This document shows, one piece after another, positions 7,010 to 38,495 of a DNA stretch of 39,430 bases. How positions within the stretch are numbered: position 1 is the stretch's first letter; each line of letters begins with the position of its first letter. The stretch is from a virus. Position numbers and translations under genes: made by a program. The stretch spans positions 1-39,430 of the IMG/VR virus record IMGVR_UViG_3300010430_000189; one strand, 5' to 3'. The notes beneath the pieces are model-generated. The model saw only the letters and a program-made list of their open reading frames with translations, did no database searches and was not told the origin of the DNA.

Positions 7010-8416
7010 ATGAATGGAAATAATAATAATGCCAATGAGCTAGGAAATCCTTTTACAGCAGCAGGTGTTAGTGGATCTTCTTTAAATAGTGGATCATTTC
7101 CAACCGCGTATGATTTTGCAAAGAAATTTGTAAATCCTAAGAGTGCTAACGGGAGTGGTAATAATGGAGTTACTTCATTAGATGATCCTACATATTTAGG
7201 GTATAGTTTAATGTTTGATATTACATCACCGTTATTTAATGGTGCTATTGCAGGTAATCCTGCTATTGAGACAGGTGGCTCTGGTGGTAATTACCCACAA
7301 GATTCTGAATCTGCTATTTCATATCTTCTGCAGATAGGTGAAGCAAACCGAGTAGAATATTTAAAGGCATTTATACAGGGGTTATTAGAAATACAAAACA
7401 CAAGACCGTATTACTTTCAAACTATAGCTGGTTTATTAGAGGCTTGGGAAAAATCTACTAAGTTTGAAGAAGATCCTTTTACAGGAAGTGAAGGAGAAGA
7501 AGGTATTACTATAGGATGCCTAGAGGCCATAGATTTAAAAATAACTGCATTGTTTAATTTATATAGAATGGCCGTGTATGATGTACGATATAAAAGATTT
7601 GTTTTACCTAAAAATCTAATGAGGTTTGATGTTTATGTAAGTGTACATGAAATAAGAAAATTCAAAACAACAGTAAGAGGAGTTGAGGCAGCTGCTAACA
7701 CAGCAGAAACTAATTCTGCTACAGTTGTAAATGAAAATACTTCTCAGCTTAGATTTAAATTTACTCAATGTATATTTAATGCTGGTGCAAGTGGTAAAGT
7801 TTTTGAAGGTGTTACTAATACTGGTGGTACTGTAGCAACAACTGAAATGAAATGGGCTTATGGCCAGCTTGAAATGCTATCTCAATATTCTGGCTTTAAT
7901 ACATCACTTGAAGAAGATAAGAAGCAAACTGTAAGCTCACCAGATATGATAGGTAAACAGAAAAACTTCTTTAAAGATAAACTTGATGGCGTCGTGGACC
8001 AAGCCAAAGGGATTGGTGAGTCTGCATTAGCTAATCTTAAAGCAGCACCAGGTAATTTATTAGCAGCAGCACAGGCAAGAATAGGTGGTATAATTGATGG
8101 AGCAGTTTTAGGAAATGTATTTGGTTTACAAAATCAAATATTAGGTGCATTAACAAATCCAGGTATACTTAATGCTGCAGTAGGTGCAGCCTTACAGGGA
8201 AGCGGTTTAGGTGGAGCTAATGCTGGAAGTATAGCAGCTAGCTTAGGCGATGGTGCATTTGATCCAGCCGTAGCAATCGGGAGTTCATTAAATGGTTCTA
8301 CATCGGTCTTTGATCCATCAACAAATACTGCAGGTGGTTTAAATTCTGCTAATGCATTTGGACCATCAGGACCACCAGCAAATAACACTTTACAATCTTC
8401 AAATATATTTAACTAA
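7010..8416 (+). CDS. Tail/baseplate structural protein with Gly/Ala-rich C-terminus (468 aa)
   Basis: The first 70 residues are Asn/Gly/Ser-rich and probably flexible. The core (about 90-300) has helices (YLKAFIQGLLEIQN, GLLEAWEKS) and strands typical of tube or tube-initiator proteins (RFVLPKNLMRFDVYVSVHEI). From about 320 to 410 the chain becomes Ala/Gly/Leu-rich and weakly amphipathic (NLLAAAQARIGGIIDGAV, GILNAAVGAALQGSG) before a Ser/Asn-rich tail. That hydrophobic, small-residue stretch is unusual for a baseplate protein; it might line a channel, interact with a tape measure protein, or touch membrane. Its stop overlaps the next start as TAATG, so it is coupled to the spike gene. The exact role is unknown. 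Confidence 0.55.
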   Translation: MNGNNNNANELGNPFTAAGVSGSSLNSGSFPTAYDFAKKFVNPKSANGSGNNGVTSLDDPTYLGYSLMFDITSPLFNGAIAGNPAIETGGSGGNYPQDSESAISYLLQIGEANRVEYLKAFIQGLLEIQNTRPYYFQTIAGLLEAWEKSTKFEEDPFTGSEGEEGITIGCLEAIDLKITALFNLYRMAVYDVRYKRFVLPKNLMRFDVYVSVHEIRKFKTTVRGVEAAANTAETNSATVVNENTSQLRFKFTQCIFNAGASGKVFEGVTNTGGTVATTEMKWAYGQLEMLSQYSGFNTSLEEDKKQTVSSPDMIGKQKNFFKDKLDGVVDQAKGIGESALANLKAAPGNLLAAAQARIGGIIDGAVLGNVFGLQNQILGALTNPGILNAAVGAALQGSGLGGANAGSIAASLGDGAFDPAVAIGSSLNGSTSVFDPSTNTAGGLNSANAFGPSGPPANNTLQSSNIFN

Positions 8417-9330
8417 TGGGAAAAGTAAATCCAGACAATTTTAATGCAGATGATTTAAGAACTACTCAGTGGGTAGGTATAGTAGAAGATACTGCAGATG
8501 ATATCTTTGAAGGAAGATGTAAGATAAGAGTATATGGAAAGATGGATGACAGGGTTGATCCTGAAGATCCTGCAAGTGCATACAAGATTCCTACTGCAAC
8601 TTTACCGTGGTCTAGGCCTCATCAATTAATGTATGGGGGGAGCGCAACAGGTAGTGGTAAATTTGAAATTCCAAAATTAGGATCTATTGTTAGAGTTACA
8701 TTTGATAATGGAAACTTTTATCAGCCAGTTTATCATGAAAACATTTATCCTTCAGATGAAACAAAAGGAGAGATAGAAGCAGCGTACCAAAATTCGCATG
8801 TATTAATATATGATACAGCATTTGGTTTAACTGGTGAGTTGCAGGATGGCGTTTCTGAGGTTACAAATGAAAGGGAAGGTGAGCATGTTAAAATTTTCTT
8901 TACTGAAGAAAAAGGAATAATGATGGACTATACAACAACTGAAGGACCAACTACAATTAATGTAAAGCCTGATAACTCGGTTCATATAATTAATGCTAAT
9001 GGAGATTCTATGGTAATGCTTAACGATGGAAATATAACATTTACCCATTCTGCTCAGTTTACAATTAATAGTGGAGCTGATACAGTAATTAATGCTACAA
9101 CAGATACACTTATTAATTGTGTTAATGCGGTAGTAACTGCAACAGGTGAAACTCATATTAATTCACCAAGAATTAAATTAGGTGAAGCGGCTGCTGAGGC
9201 TGTTATTAAAGGTGATACATTTGCAGGTATATTTGATTCACATTATCATATTGGTAATTTAGGTGCTCCTACTAGCCCTCCTAACAAAGTTACCGCACCT
9301 GCACTAAGTGCCAAGAATACAACTGACTAA
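8416..9330 (+). CDS. Baseplate central spike (gp5/gpV-like), no lysozyme domain
   Basis: In this 304-residue protein, residues about 16-112 form an OB-fold-like domain (QWVGIVEDTADDIFEGRCKI, then a PKLGSIVRVTFDNGNFYQP strand pair), the collar that docks on the hub trimer. After a linker, residues about 155-260 are short, regularly spaced strands (INVKPDNSVHIINANGDSMV, then FTINSGADTVINATTDTLIN), as in the intertwined beta-helix of a membrane-piercing spike. The C-terminus has DSHYHIG (274-280), an HxH motif matching the metal-binding apex of P2 gpV-type spikes. T4 gp5 carries a lysozyme domain between collar and helix; none is present here. It is translationally coupled (TAATG) to the preceding gene. 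Confidence 0.8.
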   Translation: MGKVNPDNFNADDLRTTQWVGIVEDTADDIFEGRCKIRVYGKMDDRVDPEDPASAYKIPTATLPWSRPHQLMYGGSATGSGKFEIPKLGSIVRVTFDNGNFYQPVYHENIYPSDETKGEIEAAYQNSHVLIYDTAFGLTGELQDGVSEVTNEREGEHVKIFFTEEKGIMMDYTTTEGPTTINVKPDNSVHIINANGDSMVMLNDGNITFTHSAQFTINSGADTVINATTDTLINCVNAVVTATGETHINSPRIKLGEAAAEAVIKGDTFAGIFDSHYHIGNLGAPTSPPNKVTAPALSAKNTTD

Positions 9331-9689: not shown

Positions 9690-9698
9690 AATATATAA
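9690..9698 (+). promoter_or_regulatory. Candidate phage promoter motif AATATATAA
   Basis: The motif lies 28 bases before the ATG of the S1-like gene, in the 87-base gap after the small spike-associated gene. This suggests the S1-like gene has its own promoter. Confidence 0.4.
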
Positions 9699-9726: not shown

Positions 9727-10869
9727 ATGAAAGAACAAGAAATCACAATCCAATTAAGTGATGATCCATTTGACACTAAAGTAGTAAAAGTACAAGTTCC
9801 GCATGGTACAAAATTAATGAGCAATGAATCATATGCAGCTGATGCATTATCTATGTATGGTCTTACTGATGCTACTCTTACAAAAACCCAATTAACAGAA
9901 GATCGCATTGCATATACTACAAGAGGTCAGATTACTTTTATATCAGATGATAAATCAAGAGCTCTTATTGATATTGGATCTAAGCATACTGCGTACTGCG
10001 CATTAGCCAAAGAACCTGATTATATTGTTGAGCAATTAGAAGTAGGTATTGAGATTGATGTAAAAATTAAAACCAATACTAAAACCAATGATGTGATTGC
10101 TTCAATTAGTGATGCAATTATGGAGGTTAAGTTAAAAGAAATGAAAGATGCGATTGGAAACAAAACAATTGGATTTAATGCAATAGTGAAGGAGTTAATA
10201 CATGGTGGGTATTGGGTAGACGTTGCAGGAATTAAATGCTTTATGCCAGGATCTTTAGGTGGCTTAAATAAATTACATGATTTTAATTCATTAGTCGGTA
10301 AAGAAATAATTGTAATGCCAATTATATTTTCAAAAGAAAAAGACACGATTGTAGTATCACACAGAGAATATTTAAGAACTATGATTCCTACTACTATTGA
10401 CAATTTAGAAAATACTATAAAAGAATCTAGAACCGGGTTTGTTACAGGAACTACTAAGTTTGGTATATTTGCACAATTTGATGAATGTTTAACTGGTTTA
10501 ATACCTAAGGTTGAATTAACCGAGGATACTCAAAGAGAATTGGAAAAAGGTAGTATAAAGCCAGGGGATCCTATTCAATTTTGGACCAAGGAAATTATAT
10601 CAGATAAGAAAATCATATTAAGCCAATTAGGACCTAAGATTGATCTATGGGATGGTATAGATGAAAAATATAAACCTATGATGATTACTGAAGGTAAAGT
10701 TACAAAAGTTACTTCATACGGTGCCTTTGTCGAATTAGAAAAAGGAATCAGTGGCCTAATCCATAAATCTAAACTTAAAGAAGCAAATCTAACCAAGGGT
10801 GATATTATTAATATTAAGATCGGTAGTGTAAATGTTAGTGATAGAAAGATTACTATGAACATGGCATAA
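9727..10869 (+). CDS. Ribosomal protein S1-like protein with four S1 domains
   Basis: The 380-residue protein has a roughly 55-residue N-terminal extension and then four S1/OB RNA-binding repeats at about 62-129, 146-215, 233-301 and 319-380. The last is the most canonical (EGKVTKVTSYGAFVELEKGI, then GLIHKSKL). The third has RTGFVTGTTKFGIFAQF with TGLIPKVEL. The second (GFNAIVKELIHGGYWVDVAG, with CFMPGSLGG) resembles the early repeats of bacterial S1, which contact the ribosome. E. coli S1 has six repeats. S1 delivers mRNA to the 30S subunit and matters most for messages lacking a Shine-Dalgarno site, which nearly all genes here lack. I infer a phage factor that redirects host ribosomes to phage mRNA; other RNA-binding roles are possible. 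Its place inside a baseplate cluster is odd. Confidence 0.85.
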   Translation: MKEQEITIQLSDDPFDTKVVKVQVPHGTKLMSNESYAADALSMYGLTDATLTKTQLTEDRIAYTTRGQITFISDDKSRALIDIGSKHTAYCALAKEPDYIVEQLEVGIEIDVKIKTNTKTNDVIASISDAIMEVKLKEMKDAIGNKTIGFNAIVKELIHGGYWVDVAGIKCFMPGSLGGLNKLHDFNSLVGKEIIVMPIIFSKEKDTIVVSHREYLRTMIPTTIDNLENTIKESRTGFVTGTTKFGIFAQFDECLTGLIPKVELTEDTQRELEKGSIKPGDPIQFWTKEIISDKKIILSQLGPKIDLWDGIDEKYKPMMITEGKVTKVTSYGAFVELEKGISGLIHKSKLKEANLTKGDIINIKIGSVNVSDRKITMNMA

Positions 10870-10910: not shown

Positions 10911-12203
10911 ATGTACACTAACGAACAGCTAAATGCAATATATGGATCCAAGATTGGAATTGAATTTGAATTCTTTGCCAATGAAGGAATGGATGAGGTT
11001 AAACGAAGCCTATCACAAGCTCTTAATAAACAAATAAGAGTAGAAGAAAAGGCCCATAGTGAATTCACGCCTAGTGATGAAATATTTAAATTAGAACCAG
11101 ATAATTCTGGAGGCTCCGGTATGATCGAATTGGTAACTGGGCCAATGCCGTTTGTTGAATCAAAACTTATTATAGCAAAAACTCTAAAGTGGATCCGTGA
11201 AAATGGATCCACTAATGAGAGATGTAGTATTCATATTAATGTTGCTTTTGATGGCAAGAAATTAGGACCAGGTACTAACGTATCATCTTTAGACATTGGT
11301 AAATTTGTACTTAACTTTAATGAAGAAGCGGTATATGAAGCATTTCCAAACAGGAGAGATTCGGTTTATGCTAAATCTATAAAGTTTATTGTACCTCTTA
11401 GTGGTATGACTCAGCCATCACCTGAAAAAAGGCTATGGAAAAACTATATGTTTGTTACTGAAAAATATTATGGTGTAAACTTTTCTAAATTACCAAAGAA
11501 TTATATTGAGTTTAGATACTTAGGTGGTAAGGATTATGAAAAGAAGTACAACACTATATTAAACATGACAGAACATTTTGTCTTATCTCTTTATGAAAGT
11601 TTAGTTAATCCTGTATATAATGAACATGATTTAAAAATATTAGATTCATTATTAGAAAAACACAAGAGTGTAATTGAATCATACAAGACTTATTCTGCAT
11701 TTAAAGCAAAGTATCCTAAGATTAAGCTAATGGTTGATTTAAATACTTATGACCAGATAATAGAAACATTTTATCCTAAAATGAGAGAAAAGATATTTGA
11801 GTTATTAACAAAGGCAGGTTTAAGTGAAGGTTTAATTAATTACGATGCTGACACTGGTAAAATGCAACTTAAAAATGCTGAACTAATGAAATGTTTTGAG
11901 ATAAGTGGAATTGATATTGTTGATTGTAAAATACAAGGTAATATTATAGACTGTGATATATTTAGTACTGAATTGATTAACTCATCAATGTTTGAATGTA
12001 ATCTATTTGGTGCTACTGATGCTATCGATTCTAAGATAGAGGATTCCTATGTAAGCAGACATGTAGCTGTCAAAGATTCATATGTCTTTGGTCCACGTGG
12101 TGTATTCAGTGGAGATATGGAAGGTGGCATATTTAGAAAAGGTAGAGCTACTGAATTTGCAAAATTTGAAAATACCGAAATTATAGAAATAGAAAAAATA
12201 TAA
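10911..12203 (+). CDS. Amidoligase-like (glutamine-synthetase-fold COOH-NH2 ligase) with beta-solenoid C-terminus
   Basis: The 430-residue protein shows the sequence signature of the putative amidoligase family: GIEFEFF (16-22, metal/ATP-binding acidic strand), SGMIELVTGPMPF (69-81, conserved E-x-x-T), CSIHINV (105-111, the conserved His) and NYIEFRYLGG (197-206, acidic/Arg strand). Such enzymes use ATP to join a carboxylate to an amine, making peptide-like bonds on small molecules or proteins. Residues about 330-395 are short repeats (GIDIVDCKIQGNIIDCDIF, then INSSMFECNLFG) resembling a pentapeptide-repeat-like beta-solenoid, perhaps a docking module. It lies between the S1-like gene and baseplate genes, behind a hairpin with an AGGA site. 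The substrate is unknown; modification of a virion or host protein is a guess. The family call is fairly firm. Confidence 0.7.
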   Translation: MYTNEQLNAIYGSKIGIEFEFFANEGMDEVKRSLSQALNKQIRVEEKAHSEFTPSDEIFKLEPDNSGGSGMIELVTGPMPFVESKLIIAKTLKWIRENGSTNERCSIHINVAFDGKKLGPGTNVSSLDIGKFVLNFNEEAVYEAFPNRRDSVYAKSIKFIVPLSGMTQPSPEKRLWKNYMFVTEKYYGVNFSKLPKNYIEFRYLGGKDYEKKYNTILNMTEHFVLSLYESLVNPVYNEHDLKILDSLLEKHKSVIESYKTYSAFKAKYPKIKLMVDLNTYDQIIETFYPKMREKIFELLTKAGLSEGLINYDADTGKMQLKNAELMKCFEISGIDIVDCKIQGNIIDCDIFSTELINSSMFECNLFGATDAIDSKIEDSYVSRHVAVKDSYVFGPRGVFSGDMEGGIFRKGRATEFAKFENTEIIEIEKI

Positions 12204-13508: not shown

Positions 13509-15365
13509 ATGTCATTTTTTAGTAAAACAAGAATAAAAGCAACTGAGCTATTTGAAGATTCCTTTGAATATCTCCAGCGTACTTATGACCAAGCAATAGA
13601 AACATTTACACCTGCATCACCGTTTGGTCAAGTGTTAACTGTGGTTGCCAACTTAGGAGAATTAATATTCTTTTATATAGAATCTATAGCAACAGAGTCT
13701 AATATTGCACGAGCTAGAAATATAGAGTCAATATATGGATTATCTAGATTAACAGGTCATGACCCTACACGAGGTATATCATCAAGAGGTATTATTGGAT
13801 TACGTTTAAATACAAGTGCGTCTACTCTCCTCAATGGAGATTATGTACAAATTATGAATGGTTCCAGTTTAGAAATTAGCCAGAATAATTTAACTTACTT
13901 CTTAAAATTTAACAGTGACTTTATAAGACTAGATAAAACGACAAAAGATTTTGTCAATGTTGAAATAATACAAGGGGAAAAAGATGAGCAAAGTTTTACA
14001 GGTTCAGGTTTGCCATTACAAAGTTATAACTTAATTACAAAAGATCCTACCGATCAATTTTTAGTTGATGTTTTTGTAGATGGTGAATTATGGAAATTGG
14101 TAGATTCTATATATGATATGAACCCAGGTGAAAAAGCTGCAATGGTTAAAACTAGTGTAACAGGTGGTTTAAGTATATTCTTTGGAACTACCCAGTTTGG
14201 TATTTCTCCTGCATTAGGATCTCGTATAAGAGTTACTTATATAAAAACAAGAGGAGCGTCTGGTAACATTGGAGGAAAACAAATAGATATGAAATTTTCA
14301 GAACCAGGTACAGACCCATCCGGAGAAGAGGTAGATTTAAATGAAATTCTTTCTATGAATATTACAAGGAATCCAATGTTTGGTTCTGATTCTGAAGATC
14401 CTGCGTTTACGCGATTAATTGCACCTTATGCAAGTAATTCATTTGTATTAGCAAACCCAAATAATTATATTTACTATTTAAGTAAGTATGACTTCTGGTC
14501 TTTTATAGATGCTTACAATACAAAGAATGATGAATACTTAGATGATGACAATATTATTTACTTATTTTTAATTCCTGATGTAAGAAAGAAACTTACTAGT
14601 GATATTGATTATTTCAGTATTCCTGAAGTTGAATTTTCAATGACCGATGCTGAAAAGGAAATGACATATGAAATACTTAACAAGAGTGGACGACAGGTTG
14701 TTACAGCAGAAACTAGAATAGTAGATCCTATTATTAAAAAGTATGCATTAAATGTTGTAATCAGATGGTTTGAAAATTATGATAAAGATGCTATAAGAAT
14801 TGAAATAAGAAAAAATCTAGATGAATATTTCTTAAATGTAAATAGAAGAGATAGGATACCTCGCTCTGATATTATTTCAATAATTGAAAATGTAGAAGGT
14901 ATTGATTCAGTAAATGTTTTCTTTATTTCAGAAGAAAATGAAAATGCTATTAGAAATGGTTTTTATGAAATTCCTGTTTATGGAACAGATCCTATCACAG
15001 ACCAAAAAGTATTAATTGAGAATAAAAAAATTGTATTAAAGAAAGGTGAAGATCCGCAATTAGGATTGGACAGTTTTGGAGATGTTGTAATAGAAAATAA
15101 TGACTTAGCAATAATCAGAGGTGGTTGGACTGATAGAAATGGAACTTTTTATGAACCAATACCAGAGGCTAATAAAATAAGTTCTCTTAATGTATTCTAT
15201 AAAGAAGAGATTCAAAATAATCTTTACAATAAAATACAACAAGAAAAGTACAATTCTGTAAAAAGAAATAGAGGTACTACAATTGCAACAGGAGTTAATG
15301 CTGCTGGTTTAAATACTGGTAGATTACAAAACACACCAATAATTAAAACCTTAAAAGACAAATAA
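13509..15365 (+). CDS. 6: Baseplate wedge protein gp6-like (baseplate J-like)
   Basis: The 618-residue protein is close to T4 gp6 (660). The N-terminal helices (TKATELFEDSFEYL-like start, then FGQVLTVVANLGELIFFYIE) and the segment ARARNIESIYGLSRLTGHDP are typical of gp6/J-type wedge proteins. Next come beta-rich middle domains with RGIIGLRLNTS and IRVTYIKTRGASGNIGG. The C-terminal part has ALNVVIRWFENYDKDAIRIE and RRDRIPRSDIISIIENVEGI, the ferredoxin-like segment known from this family. gp6 forms the iris-like ring that holds the wedges together. The gene lies between gp25 and the gp7-like gene, as in T4-type clusters. The last 60 residues are probably flexible. Confidence 0.8.
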   Translation: MSFFSKTRIKATELFEDSFEYLQRTYDQAIETFTPASPFGQVLTVVANLGELIFFYIESIATESNIARARNIESIYGLSRLTGHDPTRGISSRGIIGLRLNTSASTLLNGDYVQIMNGSSLEISQNNLTYFLKFNSDFIRLDKTTKDFVNVEIIQGEKDEQSFTGSGLPLQSYNLITKDPTDQFLVDVFVDGELWKLVDSIYDMNPGEKAAMVKTSVTGGLSIFFGTTQFGISPALGSRIRVTYIKTRGASGNIGGKQIDMKFSEPGTDPSGEEVDLNEILSMNITRNPMFGSDSEDPAFTRLIAPYASNSFVLANPNNYIYYLSKYDFWSFIDAYNTKNDEYLDDDNIIYLFLIPDVRKKLTSDIDYFSIPEVEFSMTDAEKEMTYEILNKSGRQVVTAETRIVDPIIKKYALNVVIRWFENYDKDAIRIEIRKNLDEYFLNVNRRDRIPRSDIISIIENVEGIDSVNVFFISEENENAIRNGFYEIPVYGTDPITDQKVLIENKKIVLKKGEDPQLGLDSFGDVVIENNDLAIIRGGWTDRNGTFYEPIPEANKISSLNVFYKEEIQNNLYNKIQQEKYNSVKRNRGTTIATGVNAAGLNTGRLQNTPIIKTLKDK

Positions 15366-21770: not shown

Positions 21771-24700
21771 ATGGCTGAAAATAATTCAATACAAACTTTG
21801 CTTCCAGAATTGTTAAGACTCTTTAACAATTCACTGGAGAGCTTTGAGAAAGTTAATCAAGCGATTACTTCAAGCAGAGATTCTGTAACTGTTAACATAC
21901 AAAATAATGATGGGACTAATTCTAGGCTTACTATACCAAGTTTTGGATATCTTAAAAATTCAGTTGATAGGTTAAATACAAATATTAATACTATAACTAA
22001 TTTTAATGATGCTAATAGCTCAATAAGATTACCAGATGGTACGTTTAGAAAATTAGTATTAGCTCAGTTGCCAACTGAGGCCGCTGACTTAACTACAATT
22101 AATTCAGTTAATGAATTCAATATAAAGCCTAACTGGTTCTTTGAAGAGTTGATTAATCCATTACTGTATATCTCATTTGATATTACCGGACAGGCTCCTA
22201 TTGATACCGAGAGGGCTATCGTACAGCGCTATATTTTAAATACTAATAGTCAAAGTAAAATTAATTATTTTGAAAATGAATATAATGGAAGCTCGGAAAT
22301 TAATTATAATAAGTTTTTACAACAGATAGTTGAAAAGAACATATCTTATGTATTAGATGAAGCAGTAGTTGATCTACCGCCAAGAGACAAGAGATTTTCA
22401 GGTAACTTTAGTGTAATAAGAATTGGTGAAGAAAGTATAACAGAAACAGTTAATGGTGTTGAGCAAACAACTATCCAAAAACTTTATAAGCTTAATAAAA
22501 TATTTTATACTGATTCAGAGGCTGATTTTGCAGATACAGTCCAACTAAAAGTAGGTGATAGCTTAGAAGTTGTATCTACACCAGTTGATACAAGATATAC
22601 TGTAACACAAATTGATTCAAGTACTAATTCTGTAACAGTGAGATTACAAGAAGGGTCTAGAACTATAAGTATTGGTGCTGATGTATTAAAAGTTGGGTCT
22701 TCATTAAATGACTTATTAGAAGTTGATGTTACTGTAGGATTTAATGAAAGGTGTGTAACCTTTGTAAAGCCTATTGATCCTAATTCAAAAATACCTGCAG
22801 TTAATTGGTCGCCGGGTAGTGGTTTTTATACTAATGATTTAAACACAATTGATTCAAGCGGTAACCTACAAAACTTAGCTGATTATTATCAAAGAAATGC
22901 TGTTGATTTTGGAAGGTACTTATTATCATTTGCACAAGATAAGATGCCTACTAGTAGAGAAGGATTAATACCAAATGCACCAGTGTTATCATCAGATGAT
23001 TTTACTGTATCTTTAATTAATGCACAAGTTAGTAAGTCAGATGCTATAGTACAACTCGTAGATTTAAATAATCAGAAAAATACTGTTCAGGCTACTTTAA
23101 GTGAATTGGATGTTTCAATAGCTCAAAGTAGAGAAAGAATACAAACAACTAATTATTCAACTGAGGTTGAGCGAGATGCAGATAAGAATGCATTACAAGG
23201 TCTTGTTACCGAGAAAGGGTCTGCGGCAAAACTTTATTCATCAGTAGTTACTGAGATAAGTGCATCTGCAAAGGATAACTCCGTTAAGAGTATATCACCT
23301 AAATATAGAGTAAGAGGATTTTGGGCAATGCCACAAGAAAAGTCATTCCCTGCAACTGGTGTTCAGGATATTATAAAATTTCAATATCGTTATAGATATC
23401 TTTCTGCAGACGGTGCTGCTAACCCTGTGAGTCAATTTTCATTTACAGATGGCAGTGGTACAAGCCAAGGTGCATTTTCAAATTACATTGTTGTTGATAG
23501 TGTAGTAAGACCTAGAATAAAAAATTCAGTAACAGGAGTATATGAATGGGCCCCTATTAATGATGATAATGCTGACTCAGTTAATATTAATCAATTAGAC
23601 ATTCCTATTAGAAAAGGTGAACAGGTAGAAATACAAGTAAAATCCATATCAGAAGCAGGTTGGCCATCTAATCCATTAACAAGTGAATGGAGTGATGCAA
23701 TAAGAGTTGAGTTCCCAGTTGATTTAAGTTCTGATAATGCAACCGAAGCAGTGTTAGCACAGAACCAAGCAGATTTAGCATTAGTTTTATTGGAAGAAAA
23801 TTTAGAAGCTATGGGATTACCTACCCATTTAAGTAGTTCATTTACTGCTAATGAAACATACTTTGCGCATTCAACTCCAGTAATAGCTTCAGGATTTTTA
23901 TCAGAAAATCAAACCCCTATTGATTTATTTACTAAGTTAACAGAAATGCAAAATCAATTAGATTTATTTGCTGAAATTTTAAATAATGCTGTTGGTGAAT
24001 TAAATACTACATTAGTAGATGATGCAGGAAATACTTTTAGTTTAAGAAGGAATGCAATTACTAATATTTTTGCTGGATTTTATTCACAAGAAGTAGATGG
24101 TTTAGATGATCCTAGAGGAGCGATTATAACTAAAACATATTTTATTAATATTGCAAATACTGCACAATCAACATTACAATTAATATCCAGAGTTACTGGA
24201 GGTAGAGCAAGGATGGTAAATCAATCTGAAAACCCTTCATATACTCTAAACGATGTATCAAGCGGTAGTACAATTTTACCAGCAACATATTCATGGTTAG
24301 ATAACAGTGCAGTTAATCAAAAAAATGGTAGAGCTACATACAGGTCTGATGATGTTGATTATAATGTTGTTAGAAAATATGATCTCACACCTATTTTATT
24401 AACTAATCCAAATGTAACAGCAGCCACAGCATATGGGCAAACTGTTTCATTGCCACCGTTTCAATCAACACAAAATAAAAATCAGTTTATTTATAGTAGA
24501 TTTAGCGACGTATCAAATGATGATACTTTTTACAGTTATATAAACCCAAGTGCAACAGCGTACACTCTTAATTTAGATACTATAGAAAATTTCTATAATG
24601 TAACAGCTGCTTCTAATGTAGGTAACCCAACTGCTGAATTTATTTGGGGTGGTGGTTTCCTACCATCAGGTTTACCAACAACAAGAGCTTCATATTTTGC

Positions 24701-25688
24701 AGGGGACAATGTAGTTTCGGTTTCAATTGCTCACCCATGGTTAACAAATTATACTACATATAGAAATGCATACATAGCATTGACTGGTGATACTCAAACC
24801 TTACCGGCTAATATACCTGCAGGTGGAATTAACTGTACAACAGGAAACGCTGTGCCAGCAAATCCAGGTGTTCCTGATATTAATAGTGGAATAGGAACTG
24901 CTGCTGTGTTATTTAGACAGTCTAAGTTTGCACCATTACCATCAAGTAATACTTTTGGTCGCCAACAAGGAATGTATTTAAATGAAAATGTTACTGACTT
25001 GGCTAATCTTACAGTAAGTCTTGGGACAATTAACTTTGATCCACCGTTTAATACTCAGATATTGCAACCTAGCCCATCGCTAACAGTTGCAAATTTAGAA
25101 AATCTTTGGGATCCAACTAGTGGTAATTACATTACAGGTGGTTATGATAGAAATTCAAAGTCATCATTTGAAAATTTTGACCAATATACTTTAGGTAAGC
25201 AATCATGCGGATCTTATTTATTCATATCTGCTGATAATCATGAAAATATACAAGTAGATGGTGACTCTATTCAATCGTTTGAGAATATTCAATTTGGACA
25301 ACAGAATTCGATTAGTGTTCCTTTAGTTTTTCAATATAGAATGACTGATTATTTTGGTGTTACAACCGGGAGCGGTTTAGGTAATATTGGAGGTGATTCA
25401 ACTGGATCTACTGTTAATCTTACATATGCAAAAAGAATAGGTTTTGATTTATTTCCAAATAATTCTGATGTTGTACAATTTGATATTGAAGTTTCAGCTA
25501 AGTATAGATCTGATAGATTAAGTATTGATAATTTCCCTAAAGCAACTGTTACAAAAGGACTTAATGATTTAGAAAAGGTAGTGGCAACACTGCAGCCTTC
25601 GATAACTCAAACTACCGTAACTCGTGGTGGTGGTGCAACGGGCGGAGGCGGTCGCAAAAACTTCAGTGGTATTGTAGCACCTAACTAA
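21771..25688 (+). CDS. Giant structural protein with coiled coil and FN3-like domain (1305 aa)
   Basis: The N-terminal 65 residues are helical (LLPELLRLFNNSLESFEKVN) and may trimerise. Beta-rich domains follow. A predicted coiled coil spans about 420-458 (SKSDAIVQLVDLNNQKNTVQ). Next is a fibronectin-III-like domain at about 505-648 (KYRVRGFWAMPQ, IIKFQYRYRYLS, then VEIQVKSISEAGWPSNP with the SEWS-type ending). A helical stretch at about 655-690 and a long beta-rich C-terminal half follow, ending in a Gly/Arg-rich tail (RGGGATGGGGRKN). FN3-like modules are common in tail proteins that contact the cell surface. I infer a peripheral baseplate or receptor-facing role. No enzymatic motif is evident. 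Confidence 0.6.
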   Translation: MAENNSIQTLLPELLRLFNNSLESFEKVNQAITSSRDSVTVNIQNNDGTNSRLTIPSFGYLKNSVDRLNTNINTITNFNDANSSIRLPDGTFRKLVLAQLPTEAADLTTINSVNEFNIKPNWFFEELINPLLYISFDITGQAPIDTERAIVQRYILNTNSQSKINYFENEYNGSSEINYNKFLQQIVEKNISYVLDEAVVDLPPRDKRFSGNFSVIRIGEESITETVNGVEQTTIQKLYKLNKIFYTDSEADFADTVQLKVGDSLEVVSTPVDTRYTVTQIDSSTNSVTVRLQEGSRTISIGADVLKVGSSLNDLLEVDVTVGFNERCVTFVKPIDPNSKIPAVNWSPGSGFYTNDLNTIDSSGNLQNLADYYQRNAVDFGRYLLSFAQDKMPTSREGLIPNAPVLSSDDFTVSLINAQVSKSDAIVQLVDLNNQKNTVQATLSELDVSIAQSRERIQTTNYSTEVERDADKNALQGLVTEKGSAAKLYSSVVTEISASAKDNSVKSISPKYRVRGFWAMPQEKSFPATGVQDIIKFQYRYRYLSADGAANPVSQFSFTDGSGTSQGAFSNYIVVDSVVRPRIKNSVTGVYEWAPINDDNADSVNINQLDIPIRKGEQVEIQVKSISEAGWPSNPLTSEWSDAIRVEFPVDLSSDNATEAVLAQNQADLALVLLEENLEAMGLPTHLSSSFTANETYFAHSTPVIASGFLSENQTPIDLFTKLTEMQNQLDLFAEILNNAVGELNTTLVDDAGNTFSLRRNAITNIFAGFYSQEVDGLDDPRGAIITKTYFINIANTAQSTLQLISRVTGGRARMVNQSENPSYTLNDVSSGSTILPATYSWLDNSAVNQKNGRATYRSDDVDYNVVRKYDLTPILLTNPNVTAATAYGQTVSLPPFQSTQNKNQFIYSRFSDVSNDDTFYSYINPSATAYTLNLDTIENFYNVTAASNVGNPTAEFIWGGGFLPSGLPTTRASYFAGDNVVSVSIAHPWLTNYTTYRNAYIALTGDTQTLPANIPAGGINCTTGNAVPANPGVPDINSGIGTAAVLFRQSKFAPLPSSNTFGRQQGMYLNENVTDLANLTVSLGTINFDPPFNTQILQPSPSLTVANLENLWDPTSGNYITGGYDRNSKSSFENFDQYTLGKQSCGSYLFISADNHENIQVDGDSIQSFENIQFGQQNSISVPLVFQYRMTDYFGVTTGSGLGNIGGDSTGSTVNLTYAKRIGFDLFPNNSDVVQFDIEVSAKYRSDRLSIDNFPKATVTKGLNDLEKVVATLQPSITQTTVTRGGGATGGGGRKNFSGIVAPN

Positions 25689-25689
25689 T

Positions 25690-25710
25690 AATCTGTAATT
25701 ACTTCAGATT
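25690..25710 (+). terminator. Possible intrinsic terminator after the 1305-residue gene
   Basis: AATCTG (25690-25695) pairs with CAGATT (25705-25710) around a nine-base loop, and a T-rich run (TATTTTAACTTTAT) follows. It begins two bases after the stop codon. The stem is short, so termination would be partial at best. Confidence 0.4.
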
Positions 25711-25720
25711 TATTTTAACT

Positions 25721-25757
25721 TTATCTTTGGTGAATAAATAAAAAAAGTGAAAGATAA
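25721..25757 (+). promoter_or_regulatory. Inverted repeat abutting the start codon of the 1573-residue gene
   Basis: TTATCTTT (25721-25728) and AAAGATAA (25750-25757) are perfect reverse complements. The right arm touches the ATG at 25758; one further T-A pair would include the A of the start codon. The loop is 21 bases and A-rich. Folding would place the initiation region in a stem and could reduce translation. Confidence 0.35.
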
Positions 25758-28700
25758 ATGGCTGAACAACTGCTTGATAAAGCATCATATAGTATTATAA
25801 GGACAAATCCTAAATTAACAGGGAATGTTAAAGTAGTATCTGATGGAACAGATATTTACTTAGAATCATTTAGTGCCAACACTAGATTGTCTTCTCAGAA
25901 ATTTAAAGCCTTTAAGGTTGATGGTACTAGTACCTATGACCAAGATGTCTTTAGGTTTTTTGACAGTGGTAAATTCCCAATAGAGGCGGCGTATGAAATA
26001 TTTCAAGAATTTGAGGATACTGCTGTACTTTCAAATTATAGAAATCAATATGAAATGTTTTATGCAGCAGGTACTAGATCTATTGCATCCGAATCATATT
26101 CACAAAGTTTAGGAACACTTGCACCGCTATGGTTAAATGATCAAATGCCTAGTGCCTTTGTAATATTTAGATTAGATGGCCCAGCTGCTGTGAATAATGT
26201 AAAAGCCTCTACTGAAAATGAAAATGCTACTAATGCACAAACATCTGCTAATTTTTCAAAACAAGTTTTAGAAAATTGTACTGCAATTAAAACTTTTGAT
26301 TTAACTGAAGGTACTGCGTTAGGATCTTATATTAGAAATTACAGAAATCAAGAAACTTTTCCAGAGGTACCACTTAATATGACATGGAGAAAAGATGAGC
26401 CAATTCTTTGGAATGGTATATCTTATAAATATGGAGGCTTTACTAGCAGTGGTAATTTTGCATATAAAGACTTAATAGTAAAAGATTCTACTATTATGCA
26501 AGATGATTATTTATTTACACAAGGATTTCAAAATAATGGAATACTTTTAGCTAATCTTTTAAATTTAGAATTTTTATTTGATGATCCAACTGCTGACGAA
26601 TATTCTATTAACAGATATTTTGGTATGTATGTTAATGAAGTGGAGGAAGGTCAGTTTGATTTATCTGGAGAAGCGTTCTTTAAAAATACAGAAAAAAGCC
26701 AACTGCCAAAAATAAAAACTATTACTGAGGTTTCACAATATTTAAATACACCATTTGAAATTACAAATGAAAATGGTGTATTATTATTTTTGGATCCAAG
26801 TAAGACAACTACTATTACTGGCCTACCGACACCAACTCGTGTTAATGATGTTGAATCTGTTTTTTATGTTAAGGATAAAGATGATGATTTTCATACAATT
26901 AAAAAAGGCTCTACTTGGGGAGAAAATCAAATTAGATTATTTGATACAAAGGTAGACGTATCTTTATTTACAGGTTATAAATCACCTGATACTTTTGCAA
27001 ACGCAAGTATTATTAGTCATCTTGGATTTGCCCAGGCATATTTAAAAATATTAGATAATGTAGTTGAAGGTTCTCGTATATCTTTATATGATGGAATTAA
27101 TTTAACAGGAACTATAACTGCTGATAGTACGCTAGCTACAATACCGGGTAAATCATTTGAAAAGTTCTTTAATCCAAACGGAACTATACAAGAAGTTGCA
27201 CAATCTTTAACATCTGCTATTAATAAAGGTATAAATGAAAATGATAGATTTTTTAATGCTACTTACAATGATAGTACTGTTTACATTAAGTCAAGACTTA
27301 GTGGTAGTAGATTTAATCAATTAAAATTTGAAATGGATAGCGCATATCCTGAGCAGTTTGAACAAATAGAATCATACCCACAAACAACCGTTGCAACACC
27401 TATGCAAAACTTTGTAGGTGGAAATAATGTAACTGATAGTTTAATAAAAGTTGAACTAGGAGACCAAGATAGATTTGTAAAAGGTAACTTTGTACAAACT
27501 ACTGGTAATTATGCGGTTATTGGTGATTGGGTACCATACACTGAAGAACCTATATTTGATGGCTTTAATAGAATTATAGGTTATACTGATATTGATAAGT
27601 ATGCAGTAATAACATGTAATGATAATCAGATAATGATTACACGATCTAATCAAGTTGCGCTATATTCAGATTATAAACCATCATTTGGTAGATTCTCATT
27701 TTTTGAAGTAAGAGATTTTGATTTTGATTTTTATAGTACAATGTACAGCCAAGAAGGTGAATTAGATTATGAGTATGCTGAATACAATCAAACCACACCA
27801 GGAACTACAACATTAGTAGGAATAAGCACTAATCCGCAAATTAAAGATTTTTATTCTAACGGTGGTTTTTATAATCTTATTGGGTTGCTAAATGACAATG
27901 AAAAACAAAACCCTAATGATGAATACATTGCTAGTGAATATATCAGATTAGAAGAAAACTTTTTAACTTCTTTAGCTAGTGTATCAAGAATTGCTCCTTA
28001 TATTAATAAATGGGCATGGTTTAATGATGGTAAAGATGTGAGAAATCACCCATATAGATTAGATGTTAATTTAGCATTTGGTTTAAATAACTTTGCACCA
28101 TCAAAATGGGATATAGTACAAGAAGCTAGTGGATTTAGCCATGAATGGTATTATCTTTCTGAATTTCCACAATACTTTACACAAGATGCAATTAAGAGTT
28201 CATGGAGTTATATTGACACTGCACCAACTGATAGTATAAATCCAAATCCTATCACAGGACAAGTTTTTGTACCAGGAACTTTTCAAGATATTACAAAGAA
28301 TTATTTTGATGATTATTTTATTGTAGAAAAATTTACAACTGGTGGAATTACTGAAATTGATAGGCAGTTAAGATACGGTAGATTTAATGGAGGAAATGAA
28401 AAGAATTTTGCAGAATCATTTTTGCGAGGTGTTAGAATTATTGCAAAAGATAAAGCTATAGGTTCACAGAAACCTGATTTTGACGCAAGATCATTATCAT
28501 ATGTTAGAAACGGTAATTTTAATGATTATCGCTTTTCAGCTATGCTAGTACCTAACTTACCTAATAAACCTGAGAGTCAAATTAAGTTTATTAAAAATGA
28601 AAAATGGAAAACTGTTGTTATGTTAATTTCAGTAGACTATGCAGATGAATGCTTAAATAATTCTGGCGATTCTATAATAGATAGAACAACTTTATATTCT

Positions 28701-30479
28701 TTAAATAGTTCTTTTGTAACAGATGCGACTTGTGCACCAATAACAACTGGAAATCCACCTGAATATGATTATACTGATAACCCGCTGAATGGTGCAATAA
28801 GCTTTAATGGATCTAGCTTTGACAATTCAACTGGGCTATTTACAATAAATGGTATTCCAAATAATAATGGCCAAGAAACTGAATTTATTAATGACTTAAG
28901 AGTATTAGCAGACGGTTCTTATGGTGATATAAAATTTTCAGTAGGCCTAGATGATTATGTAATTGCTGGTATTCAAAAAGTAATATCATCTAGTCAATTT
29001 ATATGTACTAAAGTTAGTAAGAACGGTATTCCATACACTTTGCCTAATCCTCTACCAACACAGTTCCAATTAAGAAACGCATCTTATACAGTTGCAGATA
29101 ATGGATATCTTCAGTTTGCAAATAGATTAAACGCAGTTAGTTTTGGTCAGATTTTTAATGCAGTTAATCAAGGTAACCCTAATGTAATATATGAAACTAT
29201 TGCTAAGGACGGTTCACAGGTTAGAAATACTGATGGTACACTGGCTCAAACATTTGGAATAGAACTTAGAGCTCAAACTGATATTCTTAAATCTATTTAT
29301 GTTGGCGTATTACCAACTCCGGCTAAACCAACTGAATTTAATTTAACTGATGTAGTAGGTTATGATTTATCTTTACAGAAGACTCCTAACATTACACCAA
29401 TTGCAAGACATGCTGGTTATTATGCACCTTACGCGTTGCCATTACTTTCTTTCAGAGATCCTTATATGAATATAGATTTTGATATTACTGGTAGCAGAGA
29501 CGATGAGGCATATGAGTTAAAGGTGTTAGAGCTATGTAAATTTAAAAATACACAGTTTAATAGTGCGGATCCTACCTTTGGACAAATACCAAATTTCTTT
29601 TATCATAAAATAAATGAGCAAGATCCATCAACAGTATTAGAGCTGTCTAAAGAAAGCGCATTCCCTAGTTTATATCCTCTGATTAATGAGATAGGTATTG
29701 ACTATAAAGAGTTTTATACATTTTCATCTAACTGGGAACCTTCTTACTTTACAAAAAGTATTGATAAGTCTCAAATAGAAGATGTTATCGGTACAAGATC
29801 AATGTTTGAAAGAAAATCATTTTTTGGTTCTAAATATTTGAAAGTTCCAGAGGTTATTATTTTAGAAACATTTGAGCCAGATCCCTTTGTGAAAGCAGCA
29901 ATAAGACAACCTGATTTAATAGATGGTACATTTATGTATAAAGATACGCCAACAGTTACGTTAAATAAAAAAGTAATAAATTCAAGATCTGCGTTGAAAA
30001 CAAGAGCTGTGCAAAATGAAAAACCATTTCTACCAGCTAAAAAATTTACTCGGGAAATTAAGAAGGTTCCATCAACACCTACTATTGAATTTTACTTATT
30101 TAATCAAAAAAGATTAATGGAATATTTGTTTACTCCAATTAAAGCTCAATTTGAAAAATATGTTAATAAGTTATATGGGTGGGGCGATTTAGAAACTTTA
30201 GATGATGATGTAAATCAATATATTAGAGAAAATATTCTAAAGCTTTACAAAATAGATAAGGTAGAATTTTATACATTAGCAAGTAGAAAAAGAGGAGCAT
30301 CTACATTTACTACTGCTGAACTAACAGACGCAGAGAAAATTGAAAATGGCTTAACTATTAATAATAGTGTATCATCAAAAACCATAAATACAAACCCATT
30401 TGATTTAAGGCTAATATATAATAAAAGAACAGGTTTCTCTGAATCATTTGGTTTTAGTGTTACTATAGTTAAAAAATAA
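25758..30479 (+). CDS. Giant structural protein (1573 aa)
   Basis: This is the longest gene in the window. The first 200 residues are rich in Tyr, Phe and Ser (SYSIIRTNPKLTGNVKVVSD, SANTRLSSQKFKAFKVDG) and look like a folded beta domain. The rest is a long series of mixed domains with many aromatic residues and no low-complexity linker, so the protein is probably compact rather than a thin fibre. Near the C-terminus a basic segment (RSALKTRAVQNEKPFLPAKK) is followed by a helical region (YLFTPIKAQFEKYVNKLYGW). I see no catalytic motif. The position among large peripheral tail genes suggests a major part of the outer baseplate, but no homologue is recognised. It ends ten bases before the collagen-like fibre gene. 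Confidence 0.6.
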   Translation: MAEQLLDKASYSIIRTNPKLTGNVKVVSDGTDIYLESFSANTRLSSQKFKAFKVDGTSTYDQDVFRFFDSGKFPIEAAYEIFQEFEDTAVLSNYRNQYEMFYAAGTRSIASESYSQSLGTLAPLWLNDQMPSAFVIFRLDGPAAVNNVKASTENENATNAQTSANFSKQVLENCTAIKTFDLTEGTALGSYIRNYRNQETFPEVPLNMTWRKDEPILWNGISYKYGGFTSSGNFAYKDLIVKDSTIMQDDYLFTQGFQNNGILLANLLNLEFLFDDPTADEYSINRYFGMYVNEVEEGQFDLSGEAFFKNTEKSQLPKIKTITEVSQYLNTPFEITNENGVLLFLDPSKTTTITGLPTPTRVNDVESVFYVKDKDDDFHTIKKGSTWGENQIRLFDTKVDVSLFTGYKSPDTFANASIISHLGFAQAYLKILDNVVEGSRISLYDGINLTGTITADSTLATIPGKSFEKFFNPNGTIQEVAQSLTSAINKGINENDRFFNATYNDSTVYIKSRLSGSRFNQLKFEMDSAYPEQFEQIESYPQTTVATPMQNFVGGNNVTDSLIKVELGDQDRFVKGNFVQTTGNYAVIGDWVPYTEEPIFDGFNRIIGYTDIDKYAVITCNDNQIMITRSNQVALYSDYKPSFGRFSFFEVRDFDFDFYSTMYSQEGELDYEYAEYNQTTPGTTTLVGISTNPQIKDFYSNGGFYNLIGLLNDNEKQNPNDEYIASEYIRLEENFLTSLASVSRIAPYINKWAWFNDGKDVRNHPYRLDVNLAFGLNNFAPSKWDIVQEASGFSHEWYYLSEFPQYFTQDAIKSSWSYIDTAPTDSINPNPITGQVFVPGTFQDITKNYFDDYFIVEKFTTGGITEIDRQLRYGRFNGGNEKNFAESFLRGVRIIAKDKAIGSQKPDFDARSLSYVRNGNFNDYRFSAMLVPNLPNKPESQIKFIKNEKWKTVVMLISVDYADECLNNSGDSIIDRTTLYSLNSSFVTDATCAPITTGNPPEYDYTDNPLNGAISFNGSSFDNSTGLFTINGIPNNNGQETEFINDLRVLADGSYGDIKFSVGLDDYVIAGIQKVISSSQFICTKVSKNGIPYTLPNPLPTQFQLRNASYTVADNGYLQFANRLNAVSFGQIFNAVNQGNPNVIYETIAKDGSQVRNTDGTLAQTFGIELRAQTDILKSIYVGVLPTPAKPTEFNLTDVVGYDLSLQKTPNITPIARHAGYYAPYALPLLSFRDPYMNIDFDITGSRDDEAYELKVLELCKFKNTQFNSADPTFGQIPNFFYHKINEQDPSTVLELSKESAFPSLYPLINEIGIDYKEFYTFSSNWEPSYFTKSIDKSQIEDVIGTRSMFERKSFFGSKYLKVPEVIILETFEPDPFVKAAIRQPDLIDGTFMYKDTPTVTLNKKVINSRSALKTRAVQNEKPFLPAKKFTREIKKVPSTPTIEFYLFNQKRLMEYLFTPIKAQFEKYVNKLYGWGDLETLDDDVNQYIRENILKLYKIDKVEFYTLASRKRGASTFTTAELTDAEKIENGLTINNSVSSKTINTNPFDLRLIYNKRTGFSESFGFSVTIVKK
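30413..30421 (+). promoter_or_regulatory. AATATATAA motif inside the end of the 1573-residue gene
   Basis: A copy of the candidate promoter motif lies 68 bases before the ATG of the fibre gene at 30490. It is inside coding sequence, so it may be chance, but it would allow separate transcription of that fibre gene. Confidence 0.2.
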
Positions 30480-36894: not shown

Positions 36895-37449
36895 ATGATA
36901 TTAAGCGCTAGAAATAACCAATTTAAGTTTGATTTTCCTAGGAATTTTATACCTAAACCAATTGCAGAAAAATATAAACCTTTTCTTACAAGAATTCCAG
37001 GAGGGCTAATTAAAGAGCCTATTGATTATTGGAACTATGGAATTCAGTCTATTAATTTACCTGGGCCATCTTTTGATCCAGTAACACAGACTGATTATCC
37101 TGGTAATACTAGAGCATTTAGATCAAGTTTACCAAAGCAACAGCTATTTGATAAATCTATGACTGTTACTATGCAAGCATTTGATGGTTATGTAAATTAT
37201 TGGATGGCTGTTGAAATGTTTGATTATTACTATAAGCTAAGTGGTAAACATCCATATTTACCAGAAGGAGTTGGAGTACAAATGTTAGATGCAGAAGGAA
37301 CTGTTTTTGTAACTGTGCAATTAAAAGATATGTTTATTTCAAATATAGGTGCGTTAGATTTAAACTTTTCAAGTAACACTGTTGAATTCCAGACATTTGA
37401 TATGGAGTTTAGTTATAATGTCTTAGATGTTGTAGTTAATGTAACCTAA
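36895..37449 (+). CDS. Tail tube-like protein (gp19 superfamily)
   Basis: The 184-residue length is near T4 gp19 (163). The N-terminus (FKFDFPRNFIPKPIAEKY) precedes a beta core: NYGIQSINLPGPSFDPV, then KSMTVTMQAFDGYVNYWMAV with the N-Y-W/helix step, and a C-terminal strand pair ending VEFQTFDMEFSYNVLDVV. That order (inner-surface strand, helix with Tyr/Trp, terminal F-x-Y strand) is typical of tube proteins of contractile tails. It may be the major tube subunit, or a tube initiator or terminator of gp54/gp3 type, since it is not next to a sheath gene in this window. Confidence 0.6.
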   Translation: MILSARNNQFKFDFPRNFIPKPIAEKYKPFLTRIPGGLIKEPIDYWNYGIQSINLPGPSFDPVTQTDYPGNTRAFRSSLPKQQLFDKSMTVTMQAFDGYVNYWMAVEMFDYYYKLSGKHPYLPEGVGVQMLDAEGTVFVTVQLKDMFISNIGALDLNFSSNTVEFQTFDMEFSYNVLDVVVNVT

Positions 37450-37835: not shown

Positions 37836-38495
37836 ATGATTAATATAGGAATTGACTTTTCACTAAATAGTCCAGGAGTCTGTGTAGAAACAGAAGATGG
37901 CAAATATCACTTTATAACTTTTTTTAATTACGGAAATCGTATATGGGATGAAGAAGGTAAAAAAATACCAAAAGCATTCAGTGTACATAAAGAATTAATG
38001 GATGATTCTGCAATGTTAGGATTTCCTTATAATAGAGATGTAACAAGTAAAGAGTTTTTACCTAGAGAACGCCAAAAACTACAAGACGCTGGAAATATAA
38101 GTTCTTTAATGGTAAATATTTTCTCAACACTATTTGAAGGTGATAAAGTATCAGTTGCATTAGAAGGATTTTCATATGGTTCAAAGGGAAATTCATTCAT
38201 AGACATTATTCAGTATAATACATTTTTAAGAAAGGAACTAATAGATAAGTACTCTATAGAAAATTTATCTGTCTTTCAACCTTCTCATGTAAAGAAATTA
38301 GCTGGCAAAGGAAATGCAAACAAACATTATATGGCTAAAGCATTCCAAGATGATGTCCTTAATGATAAGAACTTAAGATCTACTAAATTATGGAAATGGA
38401 CACAAGGAAAGGACTTCAGCATTAAAATTCCTAAACCTATCGACGATATCATTGATGCCTACTTTATACTTAAAGCAATAAAGGCTAACAACTAG
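37836..38495 (+). CDS. RuvC-like Holliday junction resolvase
   Basis: The 219-residue protein has an RNase H-like fold with acidic residues in the expected places: Asp7 in IGIDFSLNSPG, Glu110 in VALEGFSYGSKGN, and Asp203/Asp204/Asp207 in PIDDIIDAYFILKA. The segment FQPSHVKKLAGKGNANKHYM matches the pre-helix Lys/Gly stretch common in RuvC-type enzymes (x-P-x-x-V-K-x-x-x-x-G-x-G-x-A-x-K). Resolvases of this group cut four-way junctions and branched DNA, which T4 does with gp49 before packaging. A RuvC-like enzyme here would be a non-homologous replacement for gp49. It lies just ahead of the GroES-like and SSB genes, marking the change from virion to DNA-metabolism genes. Confidence 0.75.
   Translation: MINIGIDFSLNSPGVCVETEDGKYHFITFFNYGNRIWDEEGKKIPKAFSVHKELMDDSAMLGFPYNRDVTSKEFLPRERQKLQDAGNISSLMVNIFSTLFEGDKVSVALEGFSYGSKGNSFIDIIQYNTFLRKELIDKYSIENLSVFQPSHVKKLAGKGNANKHYMAKAFQDDVLNDKNLRSTKLWKWTQGKDFSIKIPKPIDDIIDAYFILKAIKANN

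Follow-up and report, generated by a model that had tools for sequence, protein, structure and literature searches.

Huge phages with a gene for ribosomal protein S1 (rpS1), in which Shine-Dalgarno (SD) sites are rare, were described by Al-Shayeb et al. in 2020, who suggested that the protein takes part in initiation, whether on the ribosome or off it; they noted as many as six S1 domains and could not confirm a 'true' rpS1 (PMC7162821). A parallel model was put forward for bS21 in Bacteroidota phages by Chen et al. in 2022, in a main text that does not include bS1 (PMC9723584). A phage-encoded bS1 is also known from the Microcystis phage PhiMa05, where it belongs to a set of six ribosomal proteins and was acquired from a Vampirovibrio-like host (PMC13157829).

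The protein described here is encoded, with an ATG start, at positions 9727..10869 of the + strand of a viral DNA of 39,430 nucleotides (IMG/VR record IMGVR_UViG_3300010430_000189), referred to as a whole as the window. It is a 380-residue, shortened paralogue of bS1, the protein that brings mRNA to the ribosome, and shares with the huge-phage rpS1 (PMC7162821) the protein clade, an SD-poor genome and the proposed role in initiation. Beyond that study, the OB1-OB4 order, a single origin and the anchor residues are shown here, and the SD correlation was found to be confounded by the host. The bS21 of the freshwater Bacteroidota phages (PMC9723584) is likewise a 30S initiation protein, has a conserved aromatic residue 54 and is linked to structural genes; the present case differs in that bS21 and bS1 co-occur in the same genomes. 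The OB1-OB4 colinearity, the single origin, the conservation of the anchor, the co-occurrence with bS21/IF3 and the SD negative control are new, and no earlier papers on these five points were found among the open-licence literature.

The S1 gene and its surroundings

All long non-overlapping ORFs of the window are on the + strand. An earlier interpretation, made from the sequence without database searches (the sequence-only reading), had placed the S1 gene inside the baseplate cluster, and this was confirmed: its upstream neighbour encodes a gp5-like baseplate hub/lysozyme-type protein (8416..9330, +; phrog_430, E 1.2e-11; phrog_37871, E 7.3e-13), and a gp6-like baseplate wedge is encoded on the other side (13509..15365, +; phrog_219, E 3.8e-23). 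The downstream neighbour (10911..12203, +), which has a AATATATAA box of its own, codes for a 430-residue protein whose relatives (30-42% identity) are mainly found in the 462-735 kb phages that also have relatives of the S1 protein; a weak one occurs in Agrobacterium phage Atu_ph07. Farther downstream lie giant tail genes (21771-30479) and the gene of a tail-tube-like protein (36895-37449), near which a RuvC-like Holliday junction resolvase is encoded at 37836-38495 (phrog_159, E 3.6e-12). No tRNAs or Rfam RNAs were found within the window.

The same reading had noticed a motif belonging to the S1 gene itself. A AATATATAA box is indeed located at 9690..9698 (+), starting 37 nt 5' of the ATG, and it is kept at about the same position in 14 relatives; the leader is A-rich. 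The window contains ten copies of AATATATAA on the + strand and none on the - strand. Seven of the ten are at most 60 nt upstream of an ATG (0.5 expected), about 26 nt from the starts; these boxes, ~22-37 nt before start codons (1316, 2991, 9329, 9690, 10886, 13105 and 37448, all +), precede the S1 gene and six others. In a 181-kb relative 20 of the 29 + strand copies were followed by an ATG within 60 nt, against 1.9 expected, the median distance being 27.5 nt, and the strand-specific, promoter-like AATATATAA is common to the window and its 181-kb and 429-kb relatives. AATATATAA is probably a phage promoter element, which would yield short leaders.

Domain architecture and origin

The Pfam S1 HMM matched the 380-residue protein with E = 1.4e-19, two stretches being above threshold individually. 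The NCBIfam rpsA models aligned colinearly over residues 64-378 (E = 1.4e-36 to 2.3e-40), with scores that missed the curated cut-offs (126 bits versus 577 for TIGR00717, and 138 versus 624). As these scores are far under the cut-offs for full-length rpsA, the protein must be regarded as a divergent, shortened paralogue and not as an orthologous rpsA; a shorter S1 model of 391 positions (NF005208) exists in NCBIfam. In a phmmer search of the PDB, residues 63-363 corresponded to residues 19-324 of E. coli bS1, that is, to OB1 to OB4. The gene is under purifying selection, with a median dN/dS of about 0.11 (66 pairs).

The AlphaFold2 model (mean pLDDT 78), for which 32 sequences from the window family and the 429-kb relative were used, contains four OB folds at residues ~63-126, 150-211, 234-299 and 320-379; the single OB folds are credible, their relative placement is not (pTM 0.50). 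The closest PDB folds were the bS1 chains of E. coli 30S mRNA-delivery complexes (9gut, E = 9.8e-23). OB1 (9913..10104, +) was delimited by the model together with the phmmer/PDB alignment, OB2 (10174..10359, +), the best conserved domain, by the model and the comparison of the phage sequences, and OB3 (10426..10623, +), which in E. coli bS1 binds mRNA (PMC3858243), by the model and Pfam. OB4 (10684..10863, +) was the top Pfam S1 match. Thus four OB domains are present, in comparison with six in the usual bS1, OB5-OB6 being missing. Of the earlier claim that four S1 domains fill the protein, the four folds were borne out by the model, but only two stretches pass Pfam alone, and the first ~60 residues, modelled as a beta hairpin plus two short helices, are not S1. 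The hairpin (residues 1-24; 9727..9798, +; model strands 2-9 and 17-24) is phage-specific and had no counterpart in the comparison with E. coli bS1; the helical segment ahead of OB1 (residues 36-58; 9832..9900, +) carries Tyr36 and Tyr44.

Orthology to a nuclease subunit, which the sequence-only reading had named as a finding that would speak against it, was looked for. S1-domain nucleases and regulators (PNPase, RNase R, GSP13) gave lower scores, mainly in the OB4 region, and a catalytic domain is lacking. The colinearity of OB1-OB4 with bS1 across 300 residues sets the protein apart from nuclease subunits and from proteins with a single S1 domain.

IMG/VR contains 49 related loci, almost all with 63-100% identity, and in addition a 429-kb contig (46%), which is a near-copy of a 462-kb phage. 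The phage relatives in GenBank are this 462-kb phage (LR756500, 46%), four distinct genomes of 634-735 kb and Prevotella Lak phages; LR756500 and the 634-735 kb genomes we take to be those of the Al-Shayeb et al. study. The nearest named relative (82% identity) is the S1 motif protein of Virus NIOZ-UU157 (UniProt A0A7S9STL2), also 380 residues long, which is annotated by motif only and for which no functional report was found. Around S1 the 181-kb contig has the gene order of the window; the 462-kb genome has it too, interrupted by insertions. Homologues of the giant tail genes of the window adjoin S1 in the phages of 634 and 642 kb, and a homologue of the tail-tube-like gene does so in those of 636 and 735 kb.

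In a maximum-likelihood tree (326 columns), which has few outgroups and a long phage branch, all 16 phage sequences formed one clade (100/100, one change of label) that is well separated from cellular bS1; the sequence-only reading had proposed a phylogeny against Bacteroidota S1. The clade, united by Asn181, Thr240, Gly241, Thr256 and Gly280, is on a long branch far from bacterial bS1, and PhiMa05 bS1, in keeping with its different origin, fell on the cellular side. When 198 Bacteroidota genomes were searched with a profile, 196 gave matches, the best of them in frames of bS1 length, and none was close to phage S1. Taking into account that there is one long-branch phage clade and that the matches in this 198-genome sample are only distant, recent capture from a host can be rejected, and the phage S1 is an old phage possession of single origin. 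It has in common with the bS1 of E. coli and Flavobacterium johnsoniae the OB1-OB4 order, the uS2-anchor Lys and the aromatic pocket of OB2, and differs from bacterial bS1 by the missing OB5-OB6, the N-terminal hairpin and the long separate branch.

Other "phage" records that gave S1 hits, namely Acinetobacter MD-2021a and unannotated scaffolds (Listeria, Enterococcus, faecal), were set aside because they look like bacterial rpsA; in one of them the neighbouring genes, cmk and one for an integration host factor, show this. Further S1-domain frames of 601-646 residues in three megaphages (LR745206, 195391-195630; LR756502, 71423-71671; LR756504, 449287-449496) are possibly RNase-type proteins.

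Shine-Dalgarno sites and the host

SD sites were counted by the same ORF rule in all genomes, as 4-nt matches in leaders compared with shuffled leaders. In the window such a match was present in 10% of the genes (3/30; shuffled 4.5%) and none was strong. The corresponding values were 2.2% (shuffled 4.3%) in the 181-kb relative, 2.7% (shuffled 2.6%) in the 429-kb relative and 55% in the T4 control. The observation that the genome mostly lacks SD sites was therefore correct; its use as a pointer to the role of S1 was not. Five Bacteroidota phages in which no S1 domain was found, Tenacibaculum PTm1, Chryseobacterium MA9V-1, Flavobacterium MaF61 and Cellulophaga phi14:2 and phi38:1, lack SD sites equally (1.8%, 0%, 8%, 3.8% and 11.7%, respectively, about the shuffled level), thus SD absence alone cannot support a role of the phage S1, and as evidence of S1 function it is ruled out. 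Members of the Bacteroidota are naturally devoid of SD sites (PMC6847099; PMC9976891). The missing SD sites are mostly a trait of the host phylum, and the S1-SD correlation is confounded by the host; the S1-less control weakens the published correlation between S1 presence and SD absence as functional evidence. Of the hypothesis that the phage supplies its own S1, the part concerning a bS1-type protein is well supported, whereas the SD argument fails, and both the idea and the correlation had been published in 2020 (PMC7162821).

The relatives of the gp6-like wedge are mostly from Bacteroidota phages (Prevotella, Tenacibaculum, Chryseobacterium, Flavobacterium, Bacteroides), and the phage bS21 (see below) is of the Bacteroidia type. 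Together with the SD-less leaders these observations suggest that the host of this large marine virus is likely a member of the Bacteroidota.

Predicted ribosome contacts, co-encoded partners and proposed function

In the E. coli 70S ribosome Phe5/Phe9 and Lys43, the latter in the zinc pocket of uS2, fasten bS1 to uS2, and in OB2 mRNA is held by Phe120/Phe130 (PMC10123108). The Lys43 column is Lys in 14 of the 16 phage sequences, Lak alone deviating; in the window protein it is Lys86 (codon 9982-9984, +), located in the model in a loop joining strands 78-82 and 88-92. The uS2-stacking Phe9 is replaced by Tyr in 15/16 (Tyr44 in the window protein), and at the Phe5 column, where the phage sequences have Ala, Leu or Val, Phe is lost. 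Both OB2 positions are aromatic in all 16: Phe at the Phe130 column (Phe172) and Tyr or Phe at the Phe120 column (Tyr162). Many other positions of the phage lineage depart from cellular bS1, e.g. Lys117 to His/Pro and Asp137 to Gly. In flavobacterial bS1, compared here through genomic loci, the Tyr44 column is mostly Val, thus the contact between Tyr44 and uS2 may be different in a flavobacterial host. No phage uS2 was found in a search of these S1 phages, so the anchor would be the uS2 of the host.

Deletion studies in E. coli have shown that OB1-OB3 retain all 30S activities, OB4 is stimulatory and OB5-OB6 are dispensable (PMC3858243). Since OB1-OB3 are enough there, the four-domain phage protein is plausibly a working bS1 and not a broken one. 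Different behaviour is conceivable for the Lak phages (L106 and L107; TAG read as Gln), whose S1 lacks OB4 and the uS2-anchor Lys, and in which neither bS21 nor IF3 was found; the family need not act uniformly.

Pfam Ribosomal_S21 was detected in three contigs of the window family (the longest three of the eight searched), ~23-27 kb upstream of S1, a position that the window is too short to reach, and in all four 634-735 kb phages, giving seven genomes in the S1 clade. None of the five S1-less Bacteroidota phages (0/5) had bS21. The bS21 of the 181-kb contig aligned without gaps to its best PDB match, F. johnsoniae bS21, with Tyr54 opposite Tyr54, and an equivalent residue occurs in 7/7 phage bS21 proteins (at position 53 in one, owing to a one-residue deletion). 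In F. johnsoniae Tyr54 helps to hide the anti-Shine-Dalgarno tail (PMC9976891). IF3 was found in four records: the 462-kb phage, its 429-kb near-copy, and the 636-kb and 735-kb phages. Outside Lak, bS21 or IF3 is present in all S1 phages of which a sufficient length could be read, a count that covers few lineages and ignores shared ancestry.

The claim that the S1-like protein can join the ribosome is well supported at the level of sequence by the OB1-OB4 colinearity, the mostly kept uS2 anchors and the bS21/IF3 of the relatives. We consider it fairly probable that the protein is a ribosome-docking bS1 paralogue, which recruits SD-less, A-rich phage mRNAs on the host 30S subunit, probably together with phage bS21. 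The shortened bS1 would be expressed from the AATATATAA-box promoter in front of its gene, probably along with the virion genes, and would dock on the host 30S subunit by placing its N-terminal segment and OB1 (Tyr44, Lys86) onto host uS2, where it may compete with or replace host bS1. OB2-OB4 would bind the short, A-rich, SD-less phage leaders, perhaps in preference to other messages, and deliver the mRNAs to the decoding channel. For an SD-less mRNA in F. johnsoniae the reaction amplitude became twice as large on addition of bS1 (PMC9976891). Where co-encoded, phage bS21 would mask the anti-Shine-Dalgarno tail by its Tyr54 equivalent and form part of the seat of bS1, which makes bS1 and bS21 a likely co-adapted pair.

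A protein that keeps the docking module and lacks OB5-OB6 could also be a decoy that, instead of recruiting phage mRNA, stops host translation by sitting on uS2 or on host mRNA, and truncated, ribosome-binding forms of bS1 are known to perturb the growth of E. coli (PMC3858243). This is unlikely: conservation is highest in OB2 and OB3, and OB4 is missing from Lak alone, although mere docking would require none of these domains, and the phage mRNAs are SD-less like those of the host, so that blocking bS1 would hurt the phage too. Action off the ribosome, as an RNA chaperone or as a cofactor in RNA decay, transcription or recombination, would be in line with the roles of host bS1 with T4 RegB, Q-beta replicase and lambda Beta (PMC13157829), with the retained RNA-binding surfaces of the OB folds and with the loss of the anchor Lys and OB4 in Lak phages; outside Lak, however, the anchor residues are conserved, and S1 is accompanied by the 30S-acting bS21 or IF3, which makes such a role quite unlikely. 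That S1 is a baseplate virion protein, or is packaged in the particle for early delivery, is very improbable. Baseplate genes do flank S1 in the window family and in the 462-kb relative, and the phages of 634 and 642 kb have it next to giant tail genes, but PTm1, MA9V-1 and MaF61 share the baseplate wedge and have no S1 domain, the position of the S1 gene shifts among huge phages, and the RNA- and uS2-binding positions are kept.

A wider form of the recruitment model is tentative: bS1 with bS21 and/or IF3 might constitute an ancient 30S initiation kit of the phages' own, passed down among the huge phages of Bacteroidota, that converts host ribosomes by keeping the anti-Shine-Dalgarno tail masked and loading phage mRNAs via phage bS1. 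Phages that encode both bS1 and bS21 would lend themselves to probing how Bacteroidota ribosomes select mRNA without SD pairing. Among the phage bS21 genes, that of the 735-kb phage LR756501 (L189:1462-1689) is, unlike those of its relatives, preceded by AAAGGAGGA, a strong Shine-Dalgarno sequence, and in this it resembles the autoregulated rpsU of Flavobacteriales.
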